11,362 nt of DNA, taken from positions 1 through 11,362 of the forward strand of contig CAIYYW010000207.1 in NCBI GenBank assembly GCA_903930515.1, written 5' to 3'. The translations under genes were made by a program, and so were the position numbers. Within the stretch, counting starts at the first letter, position 1, and each line of letters opens with the position of its first letter. Positions 1 through 9,858 of this stretch are shown piece after piece. Source of the stretch: an uncultured delta proteobacterium (GTDB taxonomy: Bacteria; RBG-13-61-14; DRUE01). The notes beneath the pieces are model-generated. The model searched no databases. It was not told where the DNA came from and saw only the letters and a list, made by a program, of their open reading frames with translations.

Positions 1-3000
1 CGGAGCCGGCTCCGGCCAAGGTGGGCTTGAAAATCCTTCCGCTAACAACGCCGGTCTGGATCCCGGTGCCGCCTCCTTCGGGATCTTCCAAGCCGGGCAC
101 CAGGGGAACGGCCCGGATATATAACGGGGGACTAGTGGTTCCTTCAAAACACTCCGCCTGGATGATACCGGGGGAGACCATTCTCGCCGGGCCCCGGATG
201 TCCAGGCGATAAAGATTGGTCAGGTCGGTGTAGGTTGCCTGGCCGACCTGCTTCCCAATCACCTGATAGTTCATTCTTTCACAAGCCTTGATGTTGAAGT
301 TCTGGGGCAGGATCATTACCGACCGGGGGTCCACCGTTAGCGAGCTGACATTCACCTGATAGGTTCCCCAAATTCTCGGCAGAAAACGGCTGGCCGGATT
401 GATATTTTCGGGCATATAGACAACCGCCAGGTTATATGGGGAAGGCGTGCCGTTATAAGTCAGGAGAGTGCCGTGGTAACGGCCGTCCCCGAACGGGACA
501 ATCGGGCTCACCTGCACATCCGGCTCTCCCGCGGAAACCGCGACAATCAGATCGGCGATATAAGCGGCGTCACGCGCTTCCTCCTCGTCCATACTGGCGC
601 GCCAACGGATAATAAAGGTGTCGGTGAGCGAGAACCTGGGGTCGTTATGAAGGGCGATTTTATGATGGGTCCAGCCATGGTCCACGCCGTCAAAATCCCA
701 GACCGGCACCCAGGTCTTGCCGCCGTCGTCGCTCACCTCGCAAACGAATTCCTGCCTGGGAGCGGTCTGCGAAGTATCGGCCATATCAACGGTTTTGGAA
801 AAGAAGGATACATACGCGTATTTATAAGAGCCGAGTTTCAAACTTCTTTCCACCATATAATTTCTTACCTCACCCAAGAACGAGGAAGTCCTTCCCAGGA
901 ACAGATAGCGGCAGTAACCGCCCAGTTCCACCGGGCAGGCTGGCTGACCCTCTCCTGCTTTGATCACGATCCCGGGGTTCGGCCCCATTGGATTGACCAG
1001 TTGGTCATCGCGGAGGACTCCGGATTCCAACACATCATTCGCGCCGGGGTTGACGCATTTAAAGTAAGGGTCTCCCTTTCCAGAGGGGATTAACTGGAAA
1101 TCATCTGCAGCCGCGGTGGTTTGGCAAACCCCGTTTAATCCGGTGTTGATAATGCCGCCGCTAGACTGGTCATCCCCGCCCGGGGTGGTGTTAAGGACCT
1201 TGTTGGGTCCGGGCCAGATTGCCTGGGTATAGGGCCGGCCTTGGTTTAAATAGGCGTTGGAATAGTATGCGTCATCACCTGCGAGATTGGAGTCGCAAAC
1301 GCCGTCCCGGCCGGCATCGGTGTAAGCGGCATAATCCACGCACACCATCGGGCTGTCGCAATAGGGCGGGGTATCCTCCCGGTTTTGCGAGAAATCCGCG
1401 TGAAACAACCAATCAAAACCGGTTACGGTCAGATTGTCAATCCAAAAAGTATCCCCGGTGGCGATCAGAAACTCAAACTTTAGATATAGTTTGCTTCCCA
1501 TAACCAGGAAATAATTAGTCAGTTGAAACTCGTCCCAAAGCCAGGCGTTTGCCTGAGATAGCAATTCCGCGCCGTGATAGGCTTTTAATACTTTCCAGGA
1601 ATAATTCTGATCCAGGTAAGAGACGGTCATCGAGCTGTCGTCATAATTCCCGGTGCCTTCATGATATCTCCATTGGAAAGACATTTTGGTCTGGCCGGTG
1701 TCCCATACCATCGGGTCAACAGTTATTTGCTGGTAACCGCTGGCAATGGCCTTGAGCGCGGAGGCTTCAAACCATCCTCCGCTGCTGCGATCAATGATGC
1801 ATCCGCTCCCGGAGTCGGGTTTAAAGATGGAGAAATTTTCGTAATAATAACCTTTGCCCGGCTCGCTGGAAAGATTGAGCATTCCGCCATTGTTGAGATT
1901 GCGGCTGGAGTAGAGCTTGAACCGGTCCGCAAAGCCGTTGACTGGATTGGAGTACCGGTCGGTGATGACAAAATCAACGCCCATCGGCTCGCCCACATAT
2001 TGAGTCCCGTAAGAAATCCAGGAGATGATGTAAGGGACTGCCTCTTCCGCAACCGGGGTTTTTACGGTCATCACGGCTTGGAGGGTTGCGGTTATGCCTT
2101 TGGAGGAGTCGGGGTTGACCCTAACCTCAATTATGGTCTCGTCGTCCAAATCCATATGGAGCATTCCGCCCACCGATCCCTTGGGGGCGTTTCCCAGGGA
2201 AAGGAACTTATCTGCGGGTTGCCCTTGGATGGTGGTATAATAATTATTATTGTATCTGAACCTTCCCCTCCCGCTGTGAACGGTAAAATATGGCGCGATC
2301 CCGGATTTGGGGTTGCCGAATTCGTCTTCCACCCGCACTAACACCTGGATATCGCCGGCCTTGGCCAGATATGCCGGGGAAATTTGTGGGGTAACCCATT
2401 TGATGGTTACTGGCCGGCTCTTGGGCTGGTAATTGTTCTGGAGGATGCTCCCGGTCTGCTTGGCCAAATCAATGACGCCGTCATCGCCGACGATAGAGGT
2501 AATGAGCTTGCCATTGCTTCCGGGCCCGACGCAAATCTGGTCCGGCACTCCGTTTCCGGCCGGGACTTGCTGGAGGTCGTCTCCGGATGCGGTGGTCTGT
2601 GCGAGGCCGTTTGCTCCTGCGGTTATGAACATCCCGTAGGTGGTGTCATCCCCGCCTGGGGTGGAGTTCAGAACATTATTGGGGCCGGGCGTGATGATCG
2701 TTCCGTAAGGAAAGCCGGAGTTGAGGGGGATCTGTTGAACATCATCCCCGGTCGCGCTGCTATTGCAAATGCCGTTGGCGCCGGTGGTGATAAACCGGGT
2801 GGGCCGGGCCGCGGCTTCGGAGACTCCGAGGTCGTAAATATTGATCCGGGCGTGTCCTCGGAAGTCCATCTGAACCCCGCCGAGCTTGACCTGGTCAACT
2901 CCTCCCACATTGAGCCTGGCTTTGTTCACCAGGTCTTTGAGGTAGTCAACATCTCCTTCTCCGAAAACCCAGTCCGCGTCGGCATCCAGGTATTGCTCCA

Positions 3001-3550
3001 GGAAGTAAGAGTTTTCCGTGTAAGCCGTGGAATAGACGGTGGCGTTCAGGAGGGTTGGGGTATAGTGGTTGCCGCGGCAATCACGCAAATCCGGAGAATA
3101 GGTGGAGGTGGCGATCGAGACAATGGTGGATTCTCCCAGGGGCGCACCGGACTTGAGCCTGAAGTAAACGGTTGAAAGCGTGTGCGCGGGAGTGGTGAAA
3201 TAAGAGCAACTTCCCGGAGAATGAATGTTGGTGTCCGAGATGGTGAGAAAGTGAAGGGAGGCGTTGGTCCGTTCATTCATAATCGGGCTGTTAAACTCGG
3301 CATCATTCCCGGCGGTGGCGCGGGTAGGTTCCAGCAGGTTGGAGTCATAAACTAGTTCCAGATAAATGAATCCCACCGGACTGATGTTAGTGAACGATAC
3401 ATTCACATTCACCGGGAATTCCGACCCGGGGGCAACATTATATACGGGCGCTCCCAGCGAAACCGTCTGCGCCTGCGCCAGGGCTGCCAGAGAAAAACCC
3501 AGGATTACCAAAGCCAGCCGCGTCGCTTTTCCCACTGCGTTATTATTCAT
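1..3550 (-). CDS. Giant secreted repeat protein with cohesin-like and dockerin-like parts (partial, C-terminus beyond window)
   Basis: The frame is open without a stop from an ATG at 3548-3550 to the left edge (1183 residues). The start is supported by GGAGGG four bases upstream and by a signal peptide: a basic start, hydrophobic stretch 12-24, and Ala-Gln-Ala cleavage site near 27. Residues about 29-165 look like a cohesin-type beta sandwich: LVYDSNLLEP around 66-75 matches the family's YDP-x-x-LE strand, followed by STVYFRLKSGAPLGESTI. Residues 189-200 form an EF-hand-like loop (D-x-D-x-D-6-x-D) and a degenerate partner near 229-240, as in dockerins. Repeat blocks lie at about 253-357 and 745-849. 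Between them are Ig-like stretches (about 375-560) and a beta-rich, aromatic region resembling a carbohydrate-binding jelly roll. A second beta-rich region follows block 2. The role is inferred to be cell-surface or extracellular binding or scaffolding; no catalytic motif is visible. Domain names rest on pattern recognition only. Confidence 0.85.
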   Translation of the reverse strand, partial: MNNNAVGKATRLALVILGFSLAALAQAQTVSLGAPVYNVAPGSEFPVNVNVSFTNISPVGFIYLELVYDSNLLEPTRATAGNDAEFNSPIMNERTNASLHFLTISDTNIHSPGSCSYFTTPAHTLSTVYFRLKSGAPLGESTIVSIATSTYSPDLRDCRGNHYTPTLLNATVYSTAYTENSYFLEQYLDADADWVFGEGDVDYLKDLVNKARLNVGGVDQVKLGGVQMDFRGHARINIYDLGVSEAAARPTRFITTGANGICNSSATGDDVQQIPLNSGFPYGTIITPGPNNVLNSTPGGDDTTYGMFITAGANGLAQTTASGDDLQQVPAGNGVPDQICVGPGSNGKLITSIVGDDGVIDLAKQTGSILQNNYQPKSRPVTIKWVTPQISPAYLAKAGDIQVLVRVEDEFGNPKSGIAPYFTVHSGRGRFRYNNNYYTTIQGQPADKFLSLGNAPKGSVGGMLHMDLDDETIIEVRVNPDSSKGITATLQAVMTVKTPVAEEAVPYIISWISYGTQYVGEPMGVDFVITDRYSNPVNGFADRFKLYSSRNLNNGGMLNLSSEPGKGYYYENFSIFKPDSGSGCIIDRSSGGWFEASALKAIASGYQQITVDPMVWDTGQTKMSFQWRYHEGTGNYDDSSMTVSYLDQNYSWKVLKAYHGAELLSQANAWLWDEFQLTNYFLVMGSKLYLKFEFLIATGDTFWIDNLTVTGFDWLFHADFSQNREDTPPYCDSPMVCVDYAAYTDAGRDGVCDSNLAGDDAYYSNAYLNQGRPYTQAIWPGPNKVLNTTPGGDDQSSGGIINTGLNGVCQTTAAADDFQLIPSGKGDPYFKCVNPGANDVLESGVLRDDQLVNPMGPNPGIVIKAGEGQPACPVELGGYCRYLFLGRTSSFLGEVRNYMVERSLKLGSYKYAYVSFFSKTVDMADTSQTAPRQEFVCEVSDDGGKTWVPVWDFDGVDHGWTHHKIALHNDPRFSLTDTFIIRWRASMDEEEARDAAYIADLIVAVSAGEPDVQVSPIVPFGDGRYHGTLLTYNGTPSPYNLAVVYMPENINPASRFLPRIWGTYQVNVSSLTVDPRSVMILPQNFNIKACERMNYQVIGKQVGQATYTDLTNLYRLDIRGPARMVSPGIIQAECFEGTTSPPLYIRAVPLVPGLEDPEGGGTGIQTGVVSGRIFKPTLAGAGS
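1004..1318 (-). repeat. Protein repeat cassette, copy 2 (residues about 745-849 of the giant protein)
   Basis: This is the second copy of the four-unit A-B-A-B cassette. From the first unit's Cys to the last Asp-Asp it spans 97 residues, against 95 in copy 1. Its best-kept parts are PGPNKVLNTTPGGDD (copy 1: PGPNNVLNSTPGGDD) and TGLNGVCQTTAAADD (copy 1: TAGANGLAQTTASGDD). At DNA level the copies are clearly diverged, so the duplication is old or under selection at protein level. Confidence 0.75.
2480..2794 (-). repeat. Protein repeat cassette, copy 1 (residues about 253-357 of the giant protein)
   Basis: This stretch encodes four short units in the order A-B-A-B, each ending in Asp-Asp. Unit A has the form TGANGIC-x-x-x-A-x-G-DD followed by a Q-x-IP segment, and unit B has PGPN-x-VL-x-x-TPGGDD. 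The same four units in the same order occur 490 residues further on in the protein. The acidic Asp-Asp ends and the N/D-G turns suggest calcium binding, by analogy with thrombospondin type 3 and other D-rich extracellular repeats. That function is inference. Confidence 0.75.
2830..2986 (-). other. Dockerin-like EF-hand pair in the giant protein
   Basis: Residues 189-200 read D-A-D-A-D-W-V-F-G-E-G-D, so positions 1, 3, 5 and 12 of a calcium loop are all Asp, as in dockerin and EF-hand loops, followed by a helix-like DYLKDLVNKA. A second loop about 40 residues later (MDFRGHARINIYDL) keeps position 1, the hydrophobic position 8 and Asp at position 12, but has Arg and His at positions 3 and 5. 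The first loop looks able to bind calcium and the second looks degenerate. The pair directly follows the cohesin-like domain. Confidence 0.45.
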
Positions 3551-3567: not shown

Positions 3568-3633
3568 AATCCCGAGTTTTAGGATTTAACTTCCGCGCCC
3601 TGATCCGCCTTTGCAGCGGATTCCCCTTTGGGG
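3568..3633 (-). promoter_or_regulatory. Structured leader (three small hairpins) upstream of the giant secreted gene
   Basis: Three inverted repeats lie just ahead of the start codon. CCCC-AAA-GGGG is at 3623-3633. ATCCGC-(7)-GCGGAT is at 3603-3621 and is a perfect 6-bp stem. AATCC-(9)-GGATT is at 3568-3586. The run of stems directly before the Shine-Dalgarno site could be a cis-acting RNA controlling a surface protein or just chance GC pairing. I considered the cyclic-di-GMP-I riboswitch and could not match its conserved core. Confidence 0.35.
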
Positions 3634-3657
3634 CTCTTGTTCCATCCTCTTAAGTTT

Positions 3658-3684
3658 AGCATACTCTTGCATTAAATGAAACAA
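3658..3684 (-). promoter_or_regulatory. Weak candidate promoter for the giant secreted gene
   Basis: On the minus strand, TTGTTT (3679-3684) and TATGCT (3658-3663) are separated by only 15 bases. A start near 3651 would give a leader of about 100 bases that includes the hairpins. The short spacing makes this weak. Confidence 0.2.
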
Positions 3685-3813
3685 TAGACGCTCCGGAATC
3701 ATCAATTTCTGGCCGGGGGGTTTCTAAAGCCGGTTTCCCGGGCAGGAGGAAGCGGCACAGCTTTGATAATCAATGGGTTTCGCAGGGGCCGGAAAAGGGG
3801 GAAAGCGCGGATT

Positions 3814-4617: not shown

Positions 4618-6312
4618 ATGCAAACCGCGGATATTGTCGCGCTGGTTGTCTATCTCGGGGTCCTGGTCGTGATCGGCTTCTGGATGTCGCGCAAGGTTAA
4701 GTCCATGGAAGAGTTCGTGCTGCCCAGGAGGTTCGGAAAAATCCTGATGATCACCTTCTCCTTCGGGACCGGCACCCACGCCGACGAGGCCGTGGGGGTA
4801 TCCTCCAAATCGTTCACCAACGGCGTTTCCGGAATCTGGTATCAGTGGCTCTACCTTTTCTGCACCCCCTTTTACTGGGTGATCGCTCCGATTATGAAGC
4901 GGTTCCGCGCCCTGACCACCGCGGACATCTACGAGGCTCGTTACGGAAAAAGCGTGGCCTACCTTTATACCCTGGTCGGGATATTGATTTTGATCGTGGA
5001 TATGGGGACCATCCTCAAGGCCTTTGGCGCCGTGGTTCAAGGGTCCACCGGGATCTCGGCCAACCTCGCCATCGGCTTGGTGGTGTTCGTGTTCGTGATC
5101 TACAGCGTTGCCGGAGGACTGGCCGCGGGGATCATCACCGATTTCATCCAGGGAATCCTGACCGTGATCTTTTCCTTCATTCTGCTCCCGTTCGTGCTCC
5201 GGGCCGTGGGCGGAATAAGCGGACTGCATCAGAGCATCTCTGACCCGAAACTATGGTCCATGGTCGCGCCCGGGGACATCGGCGTGTTTTATATCGCGAT
5301 GCTCTCGGTGATGGGGTTGATCGGGATCGTGACCCAGCCGCATATTATGGCCAATTGCTCGGCCGGCCGGACCGAGATGGACGGGCGGGTCGGGTTTATG
5401 GGCGGCAATATGGTCAAGCGCATCTGCACCATGGCCTGGTGCCTGGTCGGGTTCGCGGCCATCGCATATTTCGCCGGAAAAGAGATCATCCCCGACCAGG
5501 TCTGGGGACATATTGCCAAAGACTTCCTGAGCAAGGCCGCTCCCGGCCTGCTCGGGATTTTTCTCGCGACCCTGCTCGCCTCCCTCCAGAGTATGGCCAA
5601 CGCCGTGATGATCTGTTCGTCCGGATTGTTCACCGAAAATATCTATAAAAAATTTGCCGCGGGAAAATCCCCCAAGCATTACCTGTTGGTGGCGCGGATT
5701 TCCTCGGTGGTCACCGTGGCCTGCGCGTTGGTGTTCGCCTACCGGGTGGAAGGGGTGGTAAAGGGACTGGAGATTTTCTGGGTGGTCGGACTTTTGCTCG
5801 GGGTCGCCTTCTGGATGGGGCTGTTCTGGCGGAAGACCACGACCGCCGGGGCCTGGGCGTCATTTTTCGGAGTGGCCGCGAGTTGGTGGCTGAGCCGGCA
5901 GCAATTTTTCATCAACGCCGTTGCGGGTCTGCCGGCTTCCAGCGCGCTCCGGTTCGTGATGGAAGGCAAAGCCGGACCGCATATATATCTGCCCTGGTCC
6001 ATAGTATTTTTCGTCGTCTGCGGCCTGACCCTGGGGATCATTGTGAGCCTGCTCACAAAAGCGGTGGACGAGAAAAAGCTGGAAAAATATTATCAACTGA
6101 TCCATACCCCTTGCCGGGACGGGGAACAGGTGGTCACGCCCTGCACCTTGCCCGAAGATCATCTGCCCACACTCAAGCGCCGGTCCATCCCCTGGCTCGG
6201 CATTGAAATCCCCAACCTCACCCTGACCGACCTCTGGGGATTCCTCGCCGGATGGGCCTATGTCTTCACCCTGATCGGGGTTTTCTACTGGATTATCACC
6301 TGGGGCAGATGA
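4618..6312 (+). CDS. Sodium:solute symporter (SSS family)
   Basis: This is a 564-residue inner-membrane transporter with about 13 hydrophobic segments (for example 6-23, 116-140, 150-165, 176-198, 219-240, 305-325, 385-405, 458-480, 540-560). The SSS signature is clear: YSVAGGLAAGIITDFIQG at 162-179. The sodium-site helix region ATLLASLQSMANAVM at 317-331 is followed by the family's FTENIYKKF. A good ribosome site (AAGAAGGGGG) precedes the ATG at 4618. Members of this family couple inward sodium flow to uptake of sugars, amino acids, sialic acid or other solutes. The tight link to nagB suggests an amino sugar or a sialic-acid-type substrate, but nothing in the sequence proves which. The central loop and C-terminal cytoplasmic stretch (about 482-530) look normal for the family. 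Confidence 0.92.
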   Translation: MQTADIVALVVYLGVLVVIGFWMSRKVKSMEEFVLPRRFGKILMITFSFGTGTHADEAVGVSSKSFTNGVSGIWYQWLYLFCTPFYWVIAPIMKRFRALTTADIYEARYGKSVAYLYTLVGILILIVDMGTILKAFGAVVQGSTGISANLAIGLVVFVFVIYSVAGGLAAGIITDFIQGILTVIFSFILLPFVLRAVGGISGLHQSISDPKLWSMVAPGDIGVFYIAMLSVMGLIGIVTQPHIMANCSAGRTEMDGRVGFMGGNMVKRICTMAWCLVGFAAIAYFAGKEIIPDQVWGHIAKDFLSKAAPGLLGIFLATLLASLQSMANAVMICSSGLFTENIYKKFAAGKSPKHYLLVARISSVVTVACALVFAYRVEGVVKGLEIFWVVGLLLGVAFWMGLFWRKTTTAGAWASFFGVAASWWLSRQQFFINAVAGLPASSALRFVMEGKAGPHIYLPWSIVFFVVCGLTLGIIVSLLTKAVDEKKLEKYYQLIHTPCRDGEQVVTPCTLPEDHLPTLKRRSIPWLGIEIPNLTLTDLWGFLAGWAYVFTLIGVFYWIITWGR

Positions 6313-6398: not shown

Positions 6399-7469
6399 GT
6401 GACCATCAGGATTAAGAGAATTTTTTTAAGCCCGGAGGCCCGCCGCGACCAGAGGGCCGAAGGGATCATCCAACGGTTCCATCCCGGAGAGATCATTGAA
6501 GTGAACGATGTCCTGGCTGCGAATCAATTTTTGGAGCAATTCCACGACCCGATCGCCGAGGGCAAGCAGAGCCTTTGGCTCGGGAAATTCGCCGGAACAT
6601 TTTTCGAGCCTTGCCCGTGCACGCGCGATTATTTCCGGTGCGGATACTGGATTTTAAGCCCGGTGGCCGGGTGCCCGCTTGATTGCAGCTACTGCATCCT
6701 GCAAAGCTACCTTACCGCCTATCCGATCCAGGTCTATCTCAATTTTGAGGATTTGTTCGCGGAGGTTAAAAAATTTGAAAAAGCGCATCCCGGGAAAAAG
6801 ATCAGACTGGGCACCGGAGAGTTGGCGGACAGCCTGGCTTTGGAGCCGGAATTAGGTTATGCCCGGAGCCTGATTGAATTTTTTTCGGAACACAAGAATT
6901 GTGCCTTTGAGCTGAAAACCAAATCAGCGCGATGCGATTGGCTGCTTGAGCTTGGTCCTCAAAAAAACACCGTGGTTAGCTGGTCCGTGAATCCGGCGCC
7001 TGCGGTGGAACAAGAGGAAAAAGGAGCCGCGGGGATTGAAGACCGTCTGAACGCGGCCAGGGAATTGTCCGAACAGGGCTGGAGGGTCGGGTTTCATTTT
7101 GACCCGATCCTGCCGGAGTATGGCGAGCCGGCATATCTGGACTTGGTGGAGCAAATTTTTAAGCAGGTCAAGGCGGAGAAAATTTCCTGGATCAGCTTAG
7201 GGATGCTCCGCTTTCCGCCCAAGCTCAAGCCCATCATCAAGGGCCGTCATCCCGACTCAAGAATCCTCTGCGGAGAAATGTTCCCGGGACAGGATCGCAA
7301 ACTCCGTTACCTCCGGCCGATCCGCGAGAAATTCTATTCCGCTTTAATCCGCCGCATCCGCGAGCACGATCCGAACGCGCTCATTTATTTATGTATGGAA
7401 TCCGAATCGCTCTGCGAGAAATTGCTCGGCGCCCTCCCGCCCCTGATCCGGGAAAAACTGGCGCAGTGA
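6399..7469 (+). CDS. SPL-family radical SAM protein (spore photoproduct lyase-like)
   Basis: This is a 356-residue radical S-adenosylmethionine protein. GCPLDCSYCILQSYL at 91-105 contains the CxxxCxxC cluster motif (Cys92, Cys96, Cys99) in the form typical of spore photoproduct lyase and relatives. The flanking pattern (PCPCTRDYFRCGYW at 71-84, RLGTGELADSL at 136-146, VSWSVNP at 193-199, GFHFDPI at 231-237) fits the wider SPL family often annotated as DNA photolyase. True spore photoproduct lyases carry a hydrogen-donating Cys after the third strand, about where GTGELADS lies here, and this protein has none there. A thymine-dimer repair role is therefore doubtful and spore formation is not implied. 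The start is a GTG with AAGGGA four bases upstream. The gene lies 86 bases after the symporter and may be read with it or from its own promoter. Confidence 0.85.
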   Translation: MTIRIKRIFLSPEARRDQRAEGIIQRFHPGEIIEVNDVLAANQFLEQFHDPIAEGKQSLWLGKFAGTFFEPCPCTRDYFRCGYWILSPVAGCPLDCSYCILQSYLTAYPIQVYLNFEDLFAEVKKFEKAHPGKKIRLGTGELADSLALEPELGYARSLIEFFSEHKNCAFELKTKSARCDWLLELGPQKNTVVSWSVNPAPAVEQEEKGAAGIEDRLNAARELSEQGWRVGFHFDPILPEYGEPAYLDLVEQIFKQVKAEKISWISLGMLRFPPKLKPIIKGRHPDSRILCGEMFPGQDRKLRYLRPIREKFYSALIRRIREHDPNALIYLCMESESLCEKLLGALPPLIREKLAQ

Positions 7470-7470
7470 A

Positions 7471-7623
7471 TCAATTTTTAGCGTCCAGCCCAATGATCGG
7501 CTTGAAGACATCTTCATCCGCCCGAATTTCCATCGCCTTTACGGCATTGCTCCGGCTTCTTCCGCCGCGGTGACCGCGGCCAAAGCGTCCGTCTGCTGCT
7601 GATTTTTCCCTGACTGCCAGCTC
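7471..7623 (-). other. Possible gene-tail remnant in the convergent junction
   Basis: On the minus strand, two partial open frames look more protein-like than random. One runs into DALAAVTAAEEAGAMP and stops, and the other begins about there and continues as AVKAMEIRADEDVFKPIIGL before a stop at 7471-7473. Read together they could be the C-terminal end of a broken, frameshifted coding sequence. I cannot assign a family, and the stretch may simply be non-coding. It lies to the left of the left-hand direct repeat and so would be the original sequence downstream of the iron-sulfur gene before the cassette arrived. Confidence 0.25.
7564..7580. other. Perfect GC hairpin in the convergent junction
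   Basis: GCCGCGG-TGA-CCGCGGC is a perfect 7-bp stem with a 3-base loop, 95 bases after the radical SAM gene. There is no T-run after it on either strand. Its position between convergent genes makes a role in stopping or pausing transcription possible. Confidence 0.4.
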
Positions 7624-7703
7624 CCGGCTGCGGGCTGCTGATTTTCAAGCCGGAACAAATTCTTTTTCGCGGACCTGGATCAACTGGATCGCCTCGGTCG
7701 GGC
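7624..7703 (-). repeat. 80-bp direct repeat, left copy (detached 3' end of the iron-sulfur gene)
   Basis: This copy matches 8261-8340 at 78 of 80 positions; the two differences are T/C near the stop codon and A/G eight to ten bases on. On the minus strand it still encodes the last 18 residues and stop of the 4Fe-4S protein (PTEAIQLIQV then REKEFVPA), plus 21 bases past the stop. It has no upstream coding part, so it is a gene-tail duplicate. The toxin gene stops seven bases to its right. Confidence 0.9.
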
Positions 7704-7709
7704 TTAATT

Positions 7710-7979
7710 TTATCTTTGCCGGTAAGCTTCTCTTCGGTGAACCAGATGGTAGATGGCCACCAATTTGTTTTTATCATCAATGGTATAAAACACCCGATAA
7801 TCTCCAACCCGGAGCCGGTATTCATCATCAGCGCCCTTTATTTTTTTTGATTGGACCGGACGCGGATTTTTCTCCAGTGCGAGAATTTTTCCCACCAGCC
7901 AGGGGATTAACTTGCGGTCTATTTTGCGGATATCCTTATCAAAGGAGCGGGCGAAAACCAGTTCATAAGAGACTGTCAT
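7710..7979 (-). CDS. RelE/ParE-family toxin
   Basis: The protein is 89 residues long, the normal length for this type II toxin family. The conserved C-terminal half is clear: YRLRVGDYRVFYTIDD at 54-69 and HLVHRREAYR at 78-87, with the basic residues and the terminal Tyr that ribosome-dependent mRNA interferases of the RelE group use. ParE toxins, which act on gyrase, share the fold, so the target is not settled by sequence alone. The ATG at 7977-7979 lies inside the antitoxin gene, overlapping it by 17 bases, with GAAAGG eight bases upstream. Translation is therefore likely coupled to the antitoxin. The gene order (antitoxin first) is the usual one. The stop codon sits seven bases from the left 80-bp repeat. 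Confidence 0.9.
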   Translation of the reverse strand: MTVSYELVFARSFDKDIRKIDRKLIPWLVGKILALEKNPRPVQSKKIKGADDEYRLRVGDYRVFYTIDDKNKLVAIYHLVHRREAYRQR

Positions 7980-8199
7980 CCTTCAAGCCTTTCAAAAATT
8001 CGGTTTTACTGAGCGTCCGCTCTCCCTTTCTTTCCTTGATTTTTTGATGCCCGTAAAGGTCCTCCAGCAATTCCTTCAAAACTTTGCGATGAAGGGAAAG
8101 ATCAATTACAACCGCTTTTTTATTACCCCGCTCATCTACCACGAAGCCCACGCCTTTTAATCCGGTGGAACCCGAGGCGCCTGATTTTTGCTTGTTCAT
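7963..8199 (-). CDS. Antitoxin of the RelE/ParE module
   Basis: This 78-residue, highly charged protein is encoded directly before and overlapping the toxin. After a flexible Gly/Ser-rich start, residues about 16-33 (GVGFVVDERGNKKAVVID) form a beta-strand pair typical of antitoxins whose N-terminus binds operator DNA. Residues 38-78 (VLKELLEDLYGHQKIKER onward) would be the helical and extended tail that wraps and neutralises the toxin. The family could be Phd/YefM-like or a RelB variant; I cannot decide. The ATG at 8199 sits directly at the predicted transcript start, with no ribosome site. Family knowledge predicts autoregulation by the toxin-antitoxin complex. Confidence 0.8.
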   Translation of the reverse strand: MNKQKSGASGSTGLKGVGFVVDERGNKKAVVIDLSLHRKVLKELLEDLYGHQKIKERKGERTLSKTEFLKGLKDDSLL

Positions 8200-8206
8200 A
8201 AATATT

Positions 8207-8235
8207 ATTATTGAGGGTTATGCGTTCATTGTCAA
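8207..8235 (-). promoter_or_regulatory. Promoter of the toxin-antitoxin operon, probably giving a leaderless mRNA
   Basis: On the minus strand, a perfect TTGACA (8230-8235) is followed after 17 bases by AATAAT (8207-8212). Transcription would begin at about 8200, next to the antitoxin ATG at 8199. No Shine-Dalgarno sequence is present between. The A/T-rich -10 region has AATATT-type symmetry that could serve as operator. Confidence 0.65.
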
Positions 8236-8260
8236 ATATCATCCGGCTCTGATGAACAGG

Positions 8261-8340
8261 CCGGCTGCGGGCTGCTGACTTTCAAGCCGGGACAAATTCT
8301 TTTTCGCGGACCTGGATCAACTGGATCGCCTCGGTCGGGC
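8261..8340 (-). repeat. 80-bp direct repeat, right copy (3' end of the iron-sulfur gene)
   Basis: This copy spans the last 59 bases of the iron-sulfur gene, including its stop, and the 21 bases after it. It is 78/80 identical to 7624-7703, and the distance between copies is 637 bases. Inside it, CCGGCT (8261-8266) and AGCCGG (8285-8290) form an inverted repeat straddling the stop codon, which may serve as a weak terminator stem or a recombination target. Confidence 0.9.
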
Positions 8341-9280
8341 ATTTGATCGCGCAGAGACCGCAGCCCATGCATTTTTCCGGCTGAATTACGGCGACGGATT
8401 TTCCATTCAGATCCTTCATCTCAATCGCCTTGAACCAGCAGCGGTCAAGACAGATCTCGCATCCGTTGCAATCTTCTTTAACCACCTGGGCCTGGAACCG
8501 GCTGGGATCACACAGTTTCCTGCCTTCCTTGATCAAAAGCGGCAGGAATATACAGCAATCTCCGCAGCAATTGCAGATATAAGTGAACTCGCTCGCCTTG
8601 TTCATCGTGACATGAACCAATCCGGATTCCTCGGCCTGCTTCAGAATCTTCCGCGCCTCGTCCTTGCCGATCTCTCTCCCGGTGCCGCGCTCAATCGTGT
8701 AATCCGCGGCCTTTCCCACTTGAAGGCAGACCTCCACCGGCTTGTCGCACTTGTGCGCGGTCATCCGGCAGGTGCATTTGGTCAGCGCCACCCGAGAGGC
8801 CTTATCCAGGATCTCGTTCACGCTTTCAAAAGAGAGAACCTGGTTCCGGGCGGGAACGGTTTTCTCAATCGGGATCACCCGGGTGAAGGGCTTGGGCAGG
8901 AATTTTTCCACAAACACGGTATAGGCCGGCCATTCCTCTTCCATATATCTCTGCCAGAGGTCCAGGAATTTCTGACTGGCCTCGGGCCAGAGGATGGACG
9001 CGTCATGGAACTGGCCGAGGTCGCGGCAGAGCCGGTATTTGATCCCGTCCGGTTTTTTGGACTTGAACACCAGGCCCTTCTTGAACAACCGGTTCAGATG
9101 CTCCTCCAACGCCTTCTCCTCCAGGCCGGTCCGGGCTTTCAACTCCGCCGCGGTGCCCGGAAGCGCGAGCAGAAGCTCGGCGTCCTTTTCGTCCGCGATC
9201 ATCGCGAACAGTTCCGGGACCAGCTTGGAACCCGGGCAGAGGATTTTCTCCGCCAGTTTCCGATAGTTTTCTTTTCCCAT
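8282..9280 (-). CDS. Winged-helix 4Fe-4S protein with extra cysteine clusters
   Basis: The protein has 332 residues. Residues about 36-85 look like a winged-helix DNA-binding fold (ELKARTGLEEKALEEHLNRL then GLVFKSKK). A middle segment has CTCRMTAHKC at 169-178 with Cys185, and CNCCGDCC at 236-243. This pattern recurs in iron-sulfur proteins of anaerobic bacteria whose function is unknown to me. The C-terminus has two ferredoxin-type 4Fe-4S motifs, Cys271-274-277-281 and Cys304-307-310-314, the second with the classical CP ending and the first with Trp in place of Pro. I chose the ATG at 9280 because GGAGG lies about five bases upstream; an in-frame TTG at 9298 would fall inside the upstream gene. 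The gap to the upstream gene is 8 bases, with the ribosome site overlapping its stop, so translation is coupled. A redox or metal-sensing regulator or an electron carrier is plausible; it is not a known enzyme. Confidence 0.85.
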   Translation of the reverse strand: MGKENYRKLAEKILCPGSKLVPELFAMIADEKDAELLLALPGTAAELKARTGLEEKALEEHLNRLFKKGLVFKSKKPDGIKYRLCRDLGQFHDASILWPEASQKFLDLWQRYMEEEWPAYTVFVEKFLPKPFTRVIPIEKTVPARNQVLSFESVNEILDKASRVALTKCTCRMTAHKCDKPVEVCLQVGKAADYTIERGTGREIGKDEARKILKQAEESGLVHVTMNKASEFTYICNCCGDCCIFLPLLIKEGRKLCDPSRFQAQVVKEDCNGCEICLDRCWFKAIEMKDLNGKSVAVIQPEKCMGCGLCAIKCPTEAIQLIQVREKEFVPA

Positions 9281-9288
9281 TTGCCCTC

Positions 9289-9858
9289 CTATTTCCAACT
9301 AAGATCCAGCACGGCATAAGGAATGGGCAGATCCCAGTTATGATCCACCGTGACCACCCTGACCTCTTTGCCCCCGGCCAGCTCCACCAGCCGCTCGAAC
9401 ATTCCCATACTCTGATACGAATAGACCTCAAATTCCTTGAGCGGATGGCCCAGCCGGATGATGACCTGAGAATGATTGGGCCCCAGGTCCTTGAATTCAA
9501 TCGTCTGAAAAGCGGGGTCCGGGAACTTGAACAACTGCCTGCGGAACAGCGCGAACCGCTGCAATGTCTGCATCGGTTCCTGCTCCTCAACCAAGTTCTG
9601 ATAAACCGTCTTGATCATATCGTCCATCGCGAACCTTCCCCAGGTCCGCGCGTTCTCCAGCTTCTCCCGGCCGATCTCCTTGAAAATCGCGAGCTCGGCC
9701 CGCTCGTAGGTGTCGAGCGGATACCAACTGCTGGGCAGAATCTGGCTGTGAACAATCTCCAGGTCCCGCTCGGTCAAATATTTGGTCCAGTCCCGATCCT
9801 TGTTCGCCCGGATCAGACGCGCAACCTCCAGGAGCAGGCTTCCCTTCACTTCCGACAT
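9289..9858 (-). CDS. DUF2378/HNOB-like protein, partner of the iron-sulfur protein
   Basis: This 189-residue soluble protein has no membrane segment or signal peptide. Features are a helical start, ILPSSWYPLDTYERAE near 40-55, a helical middle (GRFAMDDMIKTVYQNL near 74-89), and a beta-rich end with YSYQSMGMFERLVELAGGK near 147-165 and a final strand VRVVTVDHNWDLPI. The length, the W-[YF]-P-L/I-Y pattern and the ligand-barrel-like end resemble the DUF2378 group (TIGR02265-type, about 180 residues) and, more remotely, heme-nitric-oxide-binding-like sensors. I see no clear heme His ligand, so ligand binding is a guess. The ATG at 9858 has GGGAGG six bases upstream. It is the first gene of a coupled two-gene operon. 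Confidence 0.65.
   Translation of the reverse strand: MSEVKGSLLLEVARLIRANKDRDWTKYLTERDLEIVHSQILPSSWYPLDTYERAELAIFKEIGREKLENARTWGRFAMDDMIKTVYQNLVEEQEPMQTLQRFALFRRQLFKFPDPAFQTIEFKDLGPNHSQVIIRLGHPLKEFEVYSYQSMGMFERLVELAGGKEVRVVTVDHNWDLPIPYAVLDLSWK

Follow-up and report, generated by a model that had tools for sequence, protein, structure and literature searches.

How do chromosomal toxin-antitoxin (TA) modules reach new sites without a carrier? This unsettled question is raised in compact form by a locus in the window (the whole 11,362-nucleotide stretch of DNA analyzed here), where a TA pair lies between two copies of the 3' end of the adjacent iron-sulfur (Fe-S) gene (Table 1). We therefore characterized the locus itself, compared it with its closest relatives, and examined the same arrangement at other TA loci of the same genome and of further genomes.

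The window locus and its closest relatives

A repeat search of the window recovered the two copies as a direct repeat with a spacing of 637, by far the longest near-perfect repeat of the window, for which the self-BLAST E value (3.5e-35) excludes a chance origin. No other 557-bp stretch of the window is as low in GC as the unit between them, whose flanks have about 55%. The unit holds only an antitoxin, a toxin, and a promoter, and 6 bases separate the stop codon of the toxin from the leftover repeat copy. The antitoxin ORF comes first and overlaps the toxin ORF by 17 bases, and both families are recognized; by these marks, the pair is predicted to be a type II TA module of the RelE/ParE superfamily. 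The putative promoter is a consensus match, and about one such match would arise by chance in a stretch of this length. An initial sequence-only reading of this DNA had given the 78-of-80 match and the 557-bp interval exactly as the repeat search and self-BLAST now return them. It had also listed the same contents for the unit, with which the ORFs, the Pfam matches, and the consensus promoter agree, and had taken the right copy for the working end of the Fe-S gene and the left copy for a leftover, which is borne out by the noncoding nature of the left copy. Its description of the toxin as RelE type holds for the superfamily but not at a finer level, as the toxin is closer to Pfam ParE_toxin and its match to the NCBIfam RelE_StbE model falls below the cutoff.

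Table 1. Features of the window locus
Feature	Positions	Strand	Description
Leftover repeat copy	7624-7703		78/80 identical to the working copy; noncoding remnant
Inserted unit	7704-8260	-	557 bp, 43.6% GC
Toxin (predicted)	7710-7979	-	89 aa; RelE/ParE superfamily; ParE_toxin PF05016, 50 bits (over cutoff)
Antitoxin (predicted)	7963-8199	-	78 aa; RelB-like; PF18506, 28.9 bits (over cutoff)
Sigma-70-type promoter (putative)	8207-8235	-	TTGACA-17-AATAAT; 11/12 consensus matches; 7 bases upstream of the antitoxin ATG
Working repeat copy	8261-8340		80 bp: final 59 bases of the Fe-S gene, including the stop codon (8282-8284), and 21 bases past the stop
Host (target) Fe-S gene	8282-9298	-	338 aa; C-terminal 4Fe-4S dicluster domain

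A DNA search with positions 7600 to 8360 against the window's own genome (G000; a 3.65-Mb assembly in 401 contigs) returned a single place, the window locus, and the 80-bp repeat is thus not a dispersed element; the dispersed-repeat reading was rejected on this ground and because the 18-base end of the repeat is exact at the two sites only. As to the marks of a transposon or insertion sequence, the unit ends show no inverted pair, and the duplication is 80 bp rather than short and fixed. Those of an integrase-bearing island were likewise not seen at the window, where the unit consists of two small ORFs with no integrase gene. We consider an integron cassette unlikely, as most of the repeat is coding sequence of the Fe-S gene. 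Elsewhere in the window, a 51-bp repeat (82% identity; positions 1169 to 1219 and 2645 to 2695) lies within a long minus-strand ORF (positions 2 to 3550) and stems from a repeated motif such as GPNNVLNSTPGGDD, and positions 6399 to 7469 encode a radical SAM protein akin to spore photoproduct lyase (NCBIfam equivalog, 96 bits against a cutoff of 400).

A search of the genus yielded two genomes, the window's own and G001, which belongs to another species. The sequence-only reading had proposed looking in relatives without the module for a single copy of the duplicated segment. The Fe-S ortholog of G001 (82% identical) indeed ends in a single tail and lacks such a TA pair, in a comparison that is between different species and extends about 400 bp beyond the tail, where the contig ends. 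Behind this single target copy lies a different small gene pair that is DUF4258/DUF2283-like by eye. It had also proposed a search for the same TA pair beside other gene tails: no sister insertion of the window's own pair was found in 98 genomes, in which the nearest relatives of the toxin are at most 48% identical, and a search of genome contigs gave one distant relative of the pair (35%).

Bracketed toxin-antitoxin pairs across genomes

We scored a locus as bracketed when a direct repeat of at least 30 bp, with at least 85% identity, an E value of at most 1e-6, and a spacing of 400 to 1400, lay around the match. By this uniform criterion, 29 of 147 TA loci from many lineages are bracketed versus 3 of 247 control places (Fisher p = 9e-11), the latter comprising 27 chance 18-mer loci, 28 Fe-S homologue loci, and 192 tiles of the window's own genome. 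One of the three control positives is itself an MNT-HEPN locus (C25, below), and the other two resemble a repeat protein and paralogues. Some of the TA loci (L255/L277 and L284/L288) overlap or share a cluster, and the repeats of L145, L153, L052, L267, L272, L279, L296, L306, and L255/L277 among the 29 look dispersed or intergenic. When classified by hand, and not blind, gene- or tRNA-derived repeats account for 17 of 143 TA loci and 0 of 246 controls (p = 2e-8). Bracketing is also tied to position, being seen in 24 of 127 cases when centered on the TA pair versus 2 to 7 of 127 at 600 to 900 bp off it, and the units have lower GC than their flanks in 12 of 13 cases (p = 0.001).

About four in five of the sampled TA loci are free of such repeats. 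No bracketing was found at six PhdYeFM loci or at six TA loci of Escherichia coli K-12, and an MNT-HEPN insertion of about 0.9 kb (L044, G000 C357), which ends near the HEPN stop codon and is absent from the orthologous site in G001 (L049, C85), shows no visible target duplication in that comparison. Three loci were rejected as target duplications: in L050 the repeat consists of parts of two tRNA genes, and in L186 and L131 it reflects, by eye, the coding similarity of paralogous neighbors.

A TA-blind scan covering 757 kb in 89 contigs of the window's own genome (3.65 Mb in all) found that most close direct repeats are, by eye, repeat proteins or paralogues. Three other repeats emerged from it (C206, C101, and C25), and all of them bracket TA pairs. 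With the targeted loci included, gene-derived repeats occur in this genome at the window, C25, C94, C267, and C101. In C25, an MNT-HEPN pair follows a sulfatase gene with a 36-bp copy that includes the stop codon; in C94, a HicBA pair follows a TIM-barrel gene with a 62-bp copy, again including the stop, and the TA pair is followed by two fragments of the gene end whose order is permuted. A HicAB pair in C267 is bracketed by 50 bp of recG, and a HicBA pair in C101 is bracketed by 119 bp of a solute-binding-protein gene, the left copy being at the contig end; the remnants lack the last 111 and 201 bases of the respective genes. The HicBA pair of C94 has a counterpart in G001 (C191) that is 83% identical and is set in unlike flanks. 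Their likeness begins about 30 bp upstream of hicB and ends exactly at the hicA stop codon; the conserved unit is thus the TA pair itself. Also seen in this genome were a near-perfect 239-bp duplication (98%; positions 1004 to 1242 and 1313 to 1551) inside the HicB region beside HicA in C206 (L153), and intergenic repeats of the type TTTGCGTCCTTTGCGCCTTTGCGG on either side of a HicAB pair in C262 (L112; positions 3584 to 3724 and 4792 to 4873), with similar text near C101 and C206.

In other genomes, TA pairs are bracketed by the final 77 bp of a DUF362/ferredoxin gene, by a 106-bp stretch that reads as the 3' end of glmS, by the duplicated 5' end of a POR-domain gene, by duplicated gene ends including the stop codon (G080 and G037), and, around HicBA in G008 (L263), by a tRNA 3' end. 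G043 carries three copies of the 5' end of an asnB-like gene (L288, C1; positions 203 to 325, 1034 to 1098, and 1967 to 2105) with two MNT-HEPN pairs between the copies, apparently the pattern of two successive insertions. The single-contig genome G048 has two bracketed cases, of 75 and 223 bp, because of which misassembly is not the cause of the arrangement. As in C267 and C101, the remnants in L258 and L326 lack the last bases of the gene. Across loci, the duplication varies in length from about 35 to 223 bp and in identity from 86 to 100%, and its target is not constant, being a 3' end at some loci and a 5' end, a tRNA end, or intergenic sequence at others. On comparing the loci, we saw neither a common core sequence at the junctions nor shared unit ends.

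As a separate observation, the joint between an iorA-like (TPP enzyme) gene and an iorB-like (POR) gene holds dissimilar MNT-HEPN pairs in L224 (G002 C44) versus L235 (G000 C313) and L245 (G001 C631), the junction being occupied in each of the latter and the pair in L235 being stitched in with 4-base overlaps. These look like independent insertions at one operon joint.

Probable insertion with target duplication, and its alternatives

The structure, its recurrence, its enrichment at TA loci, and the absence of the insert from a relative are direct observations, and the window locus has the structure of an insertion with long target duplication: copies of the target flank the unit, and their length varies across loci. 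We consider it probable that a bare TA module was captured with a long and variable duplication of its target, as in restriction-modification systems, and that addiction keeps it in place. At the window, a bare module of about 557 bp (promoter, antitoxin, and toxin) would have been captured at the 3' end of the Fe-S gene, with 80 bp of the target copied to both sides, such that one copy would rebuild the gene end and the other would be left as a remnant. As to the molecular step, a DNA fragment was probably captured either at a staggered break through fill-in or at a restarted fork through back-copying; each would yield the duplication. An insertion within a gene would survive only if the duplicated stretch restored the reading frame or the gene end. 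The gene survives where the duplication spans its stop codon, and gene tails are therefore overrepresented with no need of an insertion preference; this part can be read from the sequences.

Direct repeats of such size permit deletion of the intervening DNA. Recombination between them would therefore remove the insert and leave the site empty again; an addiction module would penalize its own loss, whereas an ordinary gene would have no such shield. We infer that TA pairs and restriction-modification systems remain visible between repeats because addiction penalizes their loss. The simplest form of insertion is insufficient because of the partial remnants in C267, C101, L258, and L326 and the permuted pieces in C94, which would call for template switching or for later deletion of remnant sequence that served no purpose.

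The same direct repeat would be obtained if a small circle or other donor DNA carrying both the gene tail and the TA pair underwent a single homologous crossover at the tail, producing tail-TA-tail at the same gene each time, and the range of repeat identities could then be donor-recipient divergence. We regard this as rather unlikely, since it leaves unexplained both the first arrival of the TA pair beside many unrelated gene ends and the similar pairs in the unlike flanks of C94 and C191, though such a crossover could act secondarily. The partial or permuted remnants in C267, C101, and C94 would suit a wider tandem duplication that later decayed, or the arrival of a TA pair in an already existing duplication. 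The sequence-only reading had offered duplication and decay as an alternative, but it does not say why a TA pair should lie between the copies. It also leaves unexplained the lower-GC interval holding little but that pair and the enrichment over controls, and the single tail of G001 points to an empty site with no duplication; we hold it to be very unlikely.

Site-specific integration at the gene 3' end, in which the incoming element brings a replacement tail, was the comparison favored by the sequence-only reading. With an integrase acting in trans, it would give the same gene-tail geometry, and the tRNA 3' end duplicated around HicBA in L263 is in keeping with it. Its chances are slighter still, given the variable repeat length, the lack of a junction core, the varied targets, which include 5' ends, and the lack of an integrase; att/integrase-like site specificity is neither needed nor supported. 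The faintest chance of all we give to an artefact of a fragmented, metagenome-type assembly, through strain mixture or a chimeric join. The 401 contigs of the window's genome and the position of the left copy in C101 speak for it, but the copies differ, the junctions coincide with the TA ends, and the association is specific to TA pairs and extends to G048.

Insertion with long target duplication also accords with another suggestion of the sequence-only reading, that of a small mobile cassette, which fits the single tail in G001 and the like arrangement of unrelated TA pairs at unrelated gene ends, and which the data support well beyond the window locus. Its observation is thereby confirmed, and its interpretation is partly right.

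Consequences and closest known systems

These results suggest that "selfish" TA pairs can establish themselves in chromosomes without a visible transposase. A broader proposition, which we put forward tentatively and think somewhat doubtful, is that unrelated TA families form a transposase-free mobile class, in which a common process leaves long target duplications, addiction retains the product, and the scars record recent movement throughout bacteria. With the scar at about 20% of the sampled TA loci versus about 1% of control places, it offers a countable sign of recent arrival. A testable consequence is that the empty site should reappear through recombination between the repeats and that addiction should select against this.

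Among previously described loci, that of Microcystis aeruginosa PCC 7806 is similar in having a type II TA pair (ParE/ParD-like) downstream of a gene and fenced by identical 152-bp direct repeats; in the account of it in PMC7935541, these repeats, unlike those of the window, begin 14 bp after the stop codon of the neighbor and hold inverted repeats, and the case is presented there as a single locus and not as a general insertion scar. There is also a remark on direct repeats flanking a TA pair in mycoplasmas (PMC8562856). Beyond these two sources, we found no wider report of such scars for TA modules in the open-access literature, which is weak evidence of their absence.

Genomic islands and integrative mobilizable elements (IMEs) at gene or tRNA 3' ends similarly duplicate the tail, with the working end on one side and a leftover on the other. 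They differ from the window-type units, which have no integrase or constant att core, measure about 0.5 to 1.2 kb, and occupy varied targets. Integron TA cassettes are likewise small TA units between repeated sequences, but here the repeats are pieces of neighboring genes and not attC, and no integron integrase was seen.

The closest parallel is with restriction-modification systems, for which insertion with long target duplication was reportedly treated by Nobusato et al. 2000 (Gene 259:99) and Furuta et al. 2010 (NAR 38:2428). Such insertion is described for restriction-modification genes of Helicobacter pylori and others in PMC1643837, PMC3031569, and PMC3874152, and as presented there the likeness lies in a self-contained addiction module, no visible transposase, and a long, variable duplication on the order of 100 bp. 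In contrast to that case, the modules here are type II TA (RelBE-type and HicAB) and MNT-HEPN pairs, in units of about 0.5 to 1.2 kb. The scar links TA modules with the way in which restriction-modification systems are described as moving, and what differs from that precedent is the presence of such scars around TA pairs, with several per genome and in many lineages.
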